This document shows positions 38,863-42,165 of a stretch of 42,165 nt of DNA, in pieces. The notes under the pieces are model-generated. The model made no database searches. It saw nothing but the letters and a program-made list of their open reading frames with translations, and had not been told where the DNA came from. This DNA is from Deltaproteobacteria bacterium (GTDB lineage: Bacteria; Desulfobacterota; GWC2-55-46; DRQE01), in NCBI GenBank assembly GCA_024278765.1, contig JAJRSM010000056.1, forward strand, positions 1 through 42,165, in the 5' to 3' direction. Each line of letters opens with the position of its first letter. The first letter of the stretch is position 1. Position numbers and translations under genes: made by a program.

Positions 38863-39894
38863 TTATCCTCCTATATCTATCATCGAGCGCTGCCGCCCGT
38901 CTTCTTCGTAGTTGTATTCGCCTTCCTCTGGTTTGAGCAGTACGGCCTTTTTAATTAGTGCTATAAGATTTTCGTCGCTGGCGTTGTCACGCAGAGCTGC
39001 CCGCATATCTACATCCATATCCGCAGGCAGGCAGGACCTGAGCCGCCCGTCCGATGTCAGTCGAAGTCTGTTGCACGCATCGCAGAAGCGGTTAGACATA
39101 GGCGAGATAAAGCCGGCCTTGCCCTTGCCATTTAAAAGCGGGAGCGAATATGCAGCAACCTTGTTTTTCGCATCTATCTTCTCTGCCACTGCCGAGGTAT
39201 CAACGCGCTCTCGTATATCGTCGCGCTTTAAGACGTCTTCTACAGGCAGATAGAATTTCTTCCAGTCTACCCCTTCGCGCATCGGCATAAACTCAATAAA
39301 GCGAACTGTTATGCCACGCTCTCCTGCAAAGTCTATCATCGAGGCGAGTTCATGGTCGTTTACGCCCTTCATTATTACGGTATTGAGCTTTATCGGTGCC
39401 AGCCCTACTTTTATCGCCTCGTCTATACCTTCTAAGACGGGCTTTAGCTCTCCGCCGCCGGTTACCATGCGGAAGCGTTCCGGGTCCAGGGTGTCTATGC
39501 TGATGTTGATACGTCCGAGGCCATTTTCTTTTAAGAGGCCTGCGTATTTTCTGAGTAGCGTTGCGTTGGTCGTCATCGCAAGGTCTTCTATGCCTCGCAT
39601 TTCAGCGATCCAGCCGACGAGTTTTTCTATATCTTTACGTACTAAGGGTTCACCGCCGGTAAGGCGTACCTTGGTAACGCCCAGATCCGCCATAAGGCGC
39701 ACGACACGAGCGATCTCTTGAAAGGACAGGATCTCAGCGCGTTTTTTCTGAGCGAACTTGTCTTCTGATGGGGCGCAGTACGTGCAACGATGGTTGCACC
39801 TGTCCGTTACCGAGACGCGCAGGTAGTTAAGCGTCCTGCCGAAGCGGTCGGTTATAACCGGACTGGCCTTATTGTCGTTGTCTTTCTCGCTCAT
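38863..39894 (-). CDS. moaA: GTP 3',8-cyclase (radical SAM)
   Basis: MoaA opens Moco synthesis by rearranging GTP with a SAM radical. From the chosen ATG 39894 the protein has 343 aa. The N-terminal cluster is C33-x3-C37-x2-C40 (CNHRCTYC). The C-terminal cluster is the CDACNRLRLTSDGRLRSCL arrangement (core CDACNRL). The protein ends SMIDIGG with the conserved Gly-Gly. A longer frame from GTG 39936 was set aside because the promoter -10 lies only about 12 bp before it and AAAGG precedes 39894. It is the first gene of a leftward 12-gene molybdenum locus. Confidence 0.94.
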   Translation of the reverse strand: MSEKDNDNKASPVITDRFGRTLNYLRVSVTDRCNHRCTYCAPSEDKFAQKKRAEILSFQEIARVVRLMADLGVTKVRLTGGEPLVRKDIEKLVGWIAEMRGIEDLAMTTNATLLRKYAGLLKENGLGRINISIDTLDPERFRMVTGGGELKPVLEGIDEAIKVGLAPIKLNTVIMKGVNDHELASMIDFAGERGITVRFIEFMPMREGVDWKKFYLPVEDVLKRDDIRERVDTSAVAEKIDAKNKVAAYSLPLLNGKGKAGFISPMSNRFCDACNRLRLTSDGRLRSCLPADMDVDMRAALRDNASDENLIALIKKAVLLKPEEGEYNYEEDGRQRSMIDIGG

Positions 39895-39947
39895 GGCTGA
39901 GTACCTTTTGATTATACGATATTGTTTTACACTCACCAGAATCTATA

Positions 39948-39976
39948 ATTATAACCTTTTAGAACTGCGTTGGCAA
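39948..39976 (-). promoter_or_regulatory. Sigma-70 promoter of the molybdenum locus
   Basis: On the minus strand it reads TTGCCA (39971-39976), a 17-bp spacer and TATAAT (39948-39953). The start would be near 39941, giving a leader of about 47 nt before ATG 39894. No Moco riboswitch was recognised in so short a leader. Confidence 0.65.
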
Positions 39977-40161
39977 GCATCGAGGTGTGGTGAGATGAGT
40001 CTTTACCGGGTGGTAATCAAGCTTTAGTGGTTGGGTAGGAAAGGCACTGTGAAAATAAGGAAAAAACCCTTTTAAAACCCTTGATAGTCCTTATTTATAA
40101 TGGCAATATAAGGCAAACAATATAAACACGTTGCGTGAACAGATAAGAACCCAGGGGAGGG

Positions 40162-41481
40162 ATGCTCTTGATTAATGTACTTGTAAAGCTTAAGGAAAAG
40201 CCAAATAAAAAGGTGCTTGGGTTGTTTGAAGGCTGTGAGATAAACTACGCAGTTCTAGGGCAGGCCGCAAAGCTTAAGCTCGCAACCAAGGAAGTCCCTT
40301 ACGATATAATTCTTTTGGAAGGCAACGGCCTCGATACTTTACGGACTATAAAAGGGGCAGACCCACGTGCCGAGGTGGTTATTATAGGCAAGGCCACGGC
40401 AAAGGCCGTTGAGTCGGTCAAGGAAGGCGCATCGGCGTACTTTGAGAGGCCGCTTGATATGAAGGCCTTTAAAAATACAGTTGATCATATTCTTGAACTG
40501 ATAAGGCTTCGCCAAGAGACCGGTAAGCTGGAGAATATCCTCTCGTCTAAGTATACCTACCACGGCATCGTCGGCAAGAACCCTCAAATACTGGAGATAA
40601 AGAACTTTATTCGCCGTATCGCGCCGTATTATAGGGCCGTGACGATCAGCGGAGAGTTGGGGGTCGGCAAAGAGGCCGTAGCACGCGCTATCCATAGCGA
40701 GGGGCTTTCACCTGAAGATTCCTTTGTAGTCTATGACTGTAGCGCAGTGACCGAGCAGACGATAGAGCGTGAGCTCTTTGGTGTCTGCCCTAGTCAAGAT
40801 GGTCAAAATGGTGAGGAGGCCTCGCAAGGCATCTTTGTTGAGGCCGGGCGCGGCACGGTAGTGTTGGATAATATCGAGTACTTGCCGCAGCAAGCTCAGG
40901 GGCTGTTAGCCTCGATTATAAAGGACGGCGAGTTTATTAGAGTAGGTTCAGGGCTGCGTATTAGTGCACAGTGCAGGGTCATTACACTGACTGAAAAGGA
41001 TCCTGCCGGTGATGTATTAAAGGGGCTTTTGACCCCTGAGTTTTACGAGTGCATAACAGACCTGAGCATTAGTCTGCCGCCGTTGCGCGCGAGAAAAGAC
41101 GACCTGCTATTGCTGACCAGATTCTTTTTAAAGAACCAGACCGAGCAGACCGGCAAGCGAATAAGTGGCGCCTCGATGCCGGTGCAGAATCTTTTTATGA
41201 AGTACGATTGGCCCGGTAATGTTACCGAGTTAAAAGAATTAATAGAGCGTGTTGCTGCTGCGACCAATGACACCTTTATCGGCCTGGACGACCTGCCCAA
41301 ACACTTCGCACGGCTCGCCGAAGAGGACGCGTCCAGTAGCCTCTCCCTTGATGACGTAATAAGGGGCCATATCAGGATGGTCTACGACTTATCTCGCCAG
41401 AATATAGACGAGGCCGCCGAGCAGCTGGGGATAAGACCGAGCGCATTAAAAAAGAAGCTTGAGAGTTATTCGCTATTGTAG
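40162..41481 (+). CDS. Degenerate NtrC-like regulator lacking the GAFTGA motif
   Basis: Three domains are visible in 439 aa. Residues 1-115 are receiver-like, but the phospho-acceptor position holds E53 (ILLEGNG) and the conserved Lys is replaced in FERPLD. Residues 132-380 are an AAA+ domain with Walker A GELGVGKE (164-171). Its sigma-54 contact loop GAFTGA is replaced by unrelated sequence after ELFG (205-222), Walker B reads VVLDNI instead of LDEI, and the FRxDLYYR arginine-finger segment is lost. A Fis-type helix-turn-helix closes it (about 417-435), after DWPGNV. It should bind DNA but probably cannot remodel sigma-54 holoenzyme. Its start may be TTG 40168, since AGGGGAGGG abuts ATG 40162. 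It is divergent from moaA, so it may regulate the Mo/Nar genes. Confidence 0.85.
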   Translation: MLLINVLVKLKEKPNKKVLGLFEGCEINYAVLGQAAKLKLATKEVPYDIILLEGNGLDTLRTIKGADPRAEVVIIGKATAKAVESVKEGASAYFERPLDMKAFKNTVDHILELIRLRQETGKLENILSSKYTYHGIVGKNPQILEIKNFIRRIAPYYRAVTISGELGVGKEAVARAIHSEGLSPEDSFVVYDCSAVTEQTIERELFGVCPSQDGQNGEEASQGIFVEAGRGTVVLDNIEYLPQQAQGLLASIIKDGEFIRVGSGLRISAQCRVITLTEKDPAGDVLKGLLTPEFYECITDLSISLPPLRARKDDLLLLTRFFLKNQTEQTGKRISGASMPVQNLFMKYDWPGNVTELKELIERVAAATNDTFIGLDDLPKHFARLAEEDASSSLSLDDVIRGHIRMVYDLSRQNIDEAAEQLGIRPSALKKKLESYSLL

Positions 41482-41608
41482 CTCACTGCGTGAGGGCAAA
41501 GCGGCTATGCCGCAAAGACTCACTGCGTGAGAGCAAGTCGACTATGCCGCAAAGACCTATAGCGTGAGAGCAAGGCGACTATGCCGCAAAGACCTATAGC
41601 GTGAGAAC
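41482..41608 (-). repeat. 37-bp tandem repeat, about 3.4 copies
   Basis: Units begin at 41482, 41519, 41556 and 41593 (partial). Each joins a CACTGCGTGAG or TATAGCGTGAG module, a GGCAAAG/AGCAAGG spacer and a CG(G/A)CTATGCCG module. The first unit starts immediately after the regulator's stop codon. The spacing is close to two of the 19-bp units seen elsewhere. Confidence 0.85.
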
Positions 41609-42027: not shown

Positions 42028-42165
42028 TGGACTTCCCTCAGTTTAGTAGACAACTACCCTTTACCTGATGAAGCCATTTCAAAGTCATGCGGGCTCAGCT
42101 GACCGAGGTAGCTGTGACGCCGGGTTTTGTTGTAAAAGACCTCGATGTAATCAAAGAGGTCAGCC
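42028..42165 (-). mobile_element. IS3-family insertion sequence, right-end fragment (second element)
   Basis: Read on the minus strand, the end of a transposase gene is followed by TGTCTACTAAACTGAGGGAAG and a terminal CA whose complement is TG at 42028-42029. This is the same type of terminus as at 1-138 but differs in sequence, so it is a different IS3-family member. The element continues beyond the window. Confidence 0.75.
42054..42164 (-). CDS. IS3-family transposase (OrfB), C-terminal fragment
   Basis: The minus-strand frame enters from the window edge and stops at TAG 42054-42056. It reads [20 protein letters not shown] and then SPHDFEM, the standard IS3 OrfB tail. The 5' part is outside the window. 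Compared with the fragment at 1-108 it shares the DYIEVFYN core but differs afterwards, so the two elements are related rather than identical. Confidence 0.8.
   Translation of the reverse strand, partial: ADLFDYIEVFYNKTRRHSYLGQLSPHDFEMASSGKG

Follow-up and report, generated by a model that had tools for sequence, protein, structure and literature searches.

TyrR, DhaR and HupR are GAFTGA-defective activator homologues that depend on sigma-70, and VpsR and YplP probably make no use of sigma-54 (PMC3162934). The NtrC proteins of Caulobacter and R. capsulatus regulate sigma-70 promoters without a GAFTGA loop and differ in their ATP needs (PMC10274813). The regulator described here resembles TyrR, DhaR, HupR and VpsR in being an NtrC-type AAA+ protein with a broken GAFTGA, but those have known targets and an established regulatory role, whereas the present protein has also lost its hydrolysis residues. 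Its likeness to the NtrC of Caulobacter and Rhodobacter capsulatus lies in a GAFTGA loop that is missing in particular lineages of an otherwise intact family; these proteins, however, use a phospho-receiver and require ATP binding (Caulobacter also Walker B), while the regulator is without receiver chemistry and without the Walker-B Glu. Its top structural and sequence matches include A. aeolicus NtrC1 (1ny5), B. abortus NtrX and V. cholerae VpsR (7v2b), compared with which its modelled L1 loop is disordered and the catalytic residues are absent. Having both bEBP homology and a lost GAFTGA, it belongs with the GAFTGA-less bEBP derivatives of the TyrR/HupR/VpsR type, of which it is a further, unusually stripped, single-lineage case.

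The window, by which we mean the whole analysed stretch of 42,165 nucleotides, contains an open NtrC-type frame of 439 aa at 40162-41481 in the list of open reading frames, as the initial annotation had it. TTG 40168 is the likelier start, because the match to the orthologue profile begins there and the purine-rich ribosome site GGGGAGGG just 5' of the start is, as read by eye, better spaced for it. Two Pfam domains score above their cut-offs, Sigma54_activat (PF00158) with 103.6 bits (cut-off 20.2; orthologues 210-224) and AAA_lid_14 with 70.8 bits, while Response_reg (18.7 vs 30.2) and HTH_8 (18.6 vs 22 bits; orthologues 48-57 bits) fall below. In the AlphaFold model the activator fold is kept (mean pLDDT 81) and the HTH helices are still present, while L1 is of low confidence and disordered (pLDDT < 50). 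The motif states given below were read from the alignment to the orthologues.

38863..39936, minus strand: moaA, which opens the divergent molybdenum operon (context only)
39948..39976, minus strand: sigma-70-like promoter towards moaA, TTGCCA-17-TATAAT, 11/12 (consensus match only)
40072..40101, plus strand: sigma-70-like promoter towards the regulator, TTAAAA-18-TATAAT, 10/12 (consensus match only)
40162..41481, plus strand: degenerate NtrC-family regulator, 439 aa from ATG 40162, 437 aa from TTG 40168
40318..40320, plus strand: codon E53 at the receiver acceptor position, E/D/K/G across the family (orthologue alignment)
40447..40449, plus strand: codon R96 at the conserved receiver Lys position (orthologue alignment)
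40651..40674, plus strand: Walker A GELGVGKE, aa 164-171, kept (orthologue alignment)
40798..40815, plus strand: L1 loop position, aa 213-218, GAFTGA of the orthologues replaced (orthologue alignment, model)
40864..40872, plus strand: Walker B, aa 235-237, LDE changed to LDN, E237N (orthologue alignment)
40993..40995, plus strand: sensor I Asn changed to Glu278, N278E (orthologue alignment)
41032..41052, plus strand: arginine-finger region, aa 291-297, R291T and R297C (orthologue alignment)
41224..41226, plus strand: sensor II Arg changed to Thr355, R355T (orthologue alignment)
41401..41469, plus strand: C-terminal Fis-type HTH, aa 414-436, altered (Pfam HTH_8 below cut-off)
42028..42165, minus strand: end of an IS element (integrase core C-terminus), multicopy, closing the contig

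The loss of GAFTGA, of the Walker-B Glu and of the arginine finger, which the initial annotation had read from this sequence by itself, was borne out in the orthologue alignment, as was the intact Walker A. Unrelated residues, VCPSQDGQNGEE, stand at the GAFTGA position, and FREDLYYRL reads LTPEFYECI across the arginine-finger region. WPGN and the Fis-type HTH had also been listed as kept; WPGN is indeed present, but the sensor-II Arg that follows it is lost (WPGNVREL of the orthologues is WPGNVTEL here) and the HTH is altered. Overlooked at that stage were N192D, at a conserved Asn preceding the L1 region, the sensor I and sensor II substitutions and the change of the HTH recognition helix from SRRALLRK to RPSALKKK. 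Alternative reading frames across L1, inspected by eye, contain no GAFTGA that a compensated frameshift could have masked, and the other losses are single substitutions. In total the regulator retains 66 of the 111 columns that are invariant in 15 orthologues and has lost 45, whereas each orthologue retains 93-100% of the invariant columns in a leave-one-out control; the losses are far beyond chance variation. They affect 10 of 11 catalytic and L1 residues as opposed to 35 of 100 others (Fisher P 0.0005, with categories chosen post hoc). With GAFTGA and the hydrolysis residues gone, the view that the protein cannot work as a normal sigma-54 activator holds. It does carry the Sigma54_activat domain, but since GAFTGA, the ATP-hydrolysis residues and a phosphorylatable receiver are all three missing, it should not be annotated as a sigma-54 activator.

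The orthologous group, delimited by a single-sequence search at E of 1e-67 or better, has 19 members including the regulator and is found in 17 of the 48 genomes of the order; in a profile search the group scores 532-741 bits, against 408 and below for other activators. All 16 aligned orthologues, drawn from the same order, have an intact AAA+ domain, with GAFTGA (GSFTGA in one), GExGxGKE, LDE and REDLxxRL, and on this alignment the AAA+ losses are private to the genome studied here. The regulator shares with same-order orthologues such as that of genome G005 the domain order, the degenerate receiver and the placement of lid and HTH; unlike it, the orthologues have GAFTGA, Walker B, sensors I and II, arginine fingers together with a strong HTH; many of them adjoin pilus genes. 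The sister orthologue, that of G005, is 49% identical over the full length. The regulator's branch measures 1.36 substitutions per site against 0.156 for G005 and thus evolved about 9-fold faster, and by domain the branch lengths of regulator and G005 are 0.74 vs 0.39 for the receiver, 1.37 vs 0.054 for the AAA core, 1.49 vs 0.01 for the lid and 2.09 vs 0.38 for the C-terminus. Single-sequence scans of genome_contigs and viral_contigs yielded no closer relative, and a scan of genome_contigs with the family alignment returned distant activators only (27-35% identity).

The receiver has a history of its own. E53 and R96 confirm the Glu acceptor and the lost Lys reported before, and the acidic pocket is absent. 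Among the 16 orthologues with intact AAA+, ten have E in the acceptor column, three D, two K and one G, and only that of G005 retains the Lys; the whole receiver pocket is therefore gone family-wide. The proposal of a permanent phospho-mimic is unsupported: the Glu is nothing special to this protein, since the receiver is degenerate throughout the orthologous group. The two degenerations are separate, because the receiver loss is old and family-wide while the AAA+ loss is private to one genome.

A genome-wide loss of sigma-54 is ruled out. The genome keeps rpoN, and its nine further activators, ~29-33% identical to the regulator, have all their motifs intact, so the AAA+ loss is no consequence of sigma-54 loss. 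A second, intact copy of the regulator was not found in this genome. In G005, G006 and G008, which are all three same-family relatives with an orthologue, a chaperone-usher operon of SCPU (spore-coat-U domain) proteins, a PapD-type chaperone and an usher ends with the orthologue (the G008 contig begins inside the usher), and in several genomes of another family the orthologue adjoins type IV minor pilins and PilY1. Usher and SCPU genes are absent from the genome studied here (G000, rated 100% complete), and tblastn detected no remnants of them in the window. Four relatives are without both the usher/SCPU operon and the orthologue, and G002 has the operon and no regulator. The PilY1 gene of our genome lies on contig C67, a few kilobases from one of the intact activators. 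We found nothing specific in the literature on sigma-54 control of SCPU or chaperone-usher genes.

Of the intergenic regions examined that are linked to an orthologue or belong to an usher operon, most contain sites resembling -24/-12 promoters (shuffle P 0 to 0.04); no sigma-54-like site was seen 5' of the G005 or G006 usher operons, nor at one other locus. The usher/SCPU operon of G002 has a good -24/-12 site upstream (L088:382-505) with no regulator adjoining, and is followed by a zwf-like gene, which is likewise found near the G006 operon. Three orthologue loci (L034:7211-7490, L036:2441-2840, L041:9211-10020) have a near-identical sigma-54-like site, TGGCACGCTTnTTCC, in common, which precedes an unannotated protein of ~340 aa; in L034, where Pfam was searched, this protein has no match.

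We regard the protein, with a probability of about 0.5, as an orphaned former sigma-54 activator that is partly maintained as a sigma-54-independent regulator, predicted to bind DNA or protein and not to hydrolyse ATP. Its ancestor would have belonged to a group of sigma-54 activators in which the receiver is inherently inactive. Intact members sit beside pilus operons, with chaperone-usher/SCPU genes as neighbours in the same-family relatives and type IV minor pilins in many others; they presumably activate the adjoining pilus promoters. In the genome studied here, where the usher/SCPU operon is absent, the regulator stands by itself beside moaA; its AAA+ domain retains P-loop and fold but no longer has the loop that contacts sigma-54 or any of the residues for ATP hydrolysis. 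On this reading it persists under relaxed but not absent constraint and would act at sigma-70 promoters, as TyrR, HupR and VpsR do. The initial idea of an ATP-binding repressor or sigma-70 regulator may still hold, apart from its Mo/nitrate role. The protein may still bind DNA or nucleotide, with putative targets; a role in DNA binding is weakened because the HTH, too, is degraded to below the Pfam cut-off.

As the gene is intact though its activator parts are lost, it could be a relic as well as a repurposed regulator. The strongest competing explanation, somewhat less probable than the reading above, is a late-stage relic: the pilus operon was lost, selection ceased, and the gene drifts without function and has by chance acquired no stop yet. 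This would agree with the missing usher/SCPU genes, the 45 lost invariant residues, among them every catalytic one and some of the HTH, the branch of nine times the sister's length and the many IS ends at contig ends of this genome. Against it, the frame is free of stops and frameshifts, and none of 300 neutral simulations that started from the GC-rich G005 sequence and ran until as many invariant residues were lost remained stop-free (mean 6 stops); limited to the AAA core, 4.4% did, so that neutrality is there only weakly disfavoured. Between regulator and G005 dN is 0.51, far below a saturated dS (moaA of the same pair: dN 0.23, dS 1.78); constraint is estimated here with a single sister, which is 49% identical and saturated at synonymous sites. 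P-loop and fold are retained, as is the GC content by codon position (GC1/2/3 0.56/0.37/0.57, like moaA). Neither an interrupted frame nor a neutral substitution pattern, the marks of a pseudogene, was thus found, and a recent loss of constraint is compatible with these values. The initial annotation would have yielded to orthologues with intact motifs that show this copy to be just a decaying gene; such orthologues exist, but decay is not established, since the reading frame is unbroken and constraint can be detected on average. On balance a protein that is still maintained, with its constraint relaxed or altered, is favoured over a pure relic, though not decisively, because dS is saturated and the sister used for comparison is not a close relative.

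More tentative than either, and in our estimate rather unlikely, is the specific version in which a sigma-54 activator that had lost its pilus operon was recruited anew in one lineage, as a sigma-70 regulator that binds nucleotide and does not hydrolyse it; if true, the intact sister proteins would allow the switch to be traced step by step.

A dedicated sigma-70 regulator, such as a repressor, of the divergent moaA-mod/nitrate genes, as first proposed, appears improbable. The divergent genes, the 225-bp intergenic region and the sigma-70-like promoters in both directions would suit it. However, moaA is present in nine of nine genomes of the family, with mod genes following where the contigs show, and in no other genome inspected does the regulator lie beside it; because moaA-mod is conserved without the regulator, a role in molybdenum or nitrate metabolism is unsupported. 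The orthologues of three relatives lie in a chaperone-usher operon instead, and the adjacency to moaA is best treated as accidental. The regulator-moaA intergenic region has no -24/-12-like site (shuffle P 0.41, 0.91) and no significant palindromic operator, the operator-like inverted repeat AAATAAGGA/TCCTTATTT at 40053-40096 being, by our own estimate, at about chance level in AT-rich DNA. No RNA element was found in Rfam near the promoter. Least probable is a dominant-negative partner, a subunit that would bind ATP without hydrolysing it and join the rings of the intact activators to tune them, for although Walker A and the AAA+ fold are kept and catalysis is lost, lid and AAA core are strongly accelerated, with changes that extend to interface residues (the arginine fingers, for example), and identity to the genome's other activators is ~29-33%.

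The orphaned regulator offers a clean natural case in which the activator of one lineage loses all activator chemistry while sigma-54 is kept, the other activators remain intact and the pilus operon that adjoins it in relatives is missing. Should it still function, it could shed light on how regulators without GAFTGA, such as TyrR and VpsR, originate; if not, it would be a warning against inferring a regulator of molybdenum genes from gene adjacency.

The IS end of ~138 bp that closes the contig recurs at 98-100% identity in ~25 further places of the genome, often at a contig end; recent IS expansion fragments the assembly of this genome. Directly 3' of the regulator, at 41488-41606, we noted three tandem copies of a 37-bp unit, GCGTGAGAGCAAG-CGACTATGCCGCAAAGAC, and short pieces related to this unit occur elsewhere in the genome.
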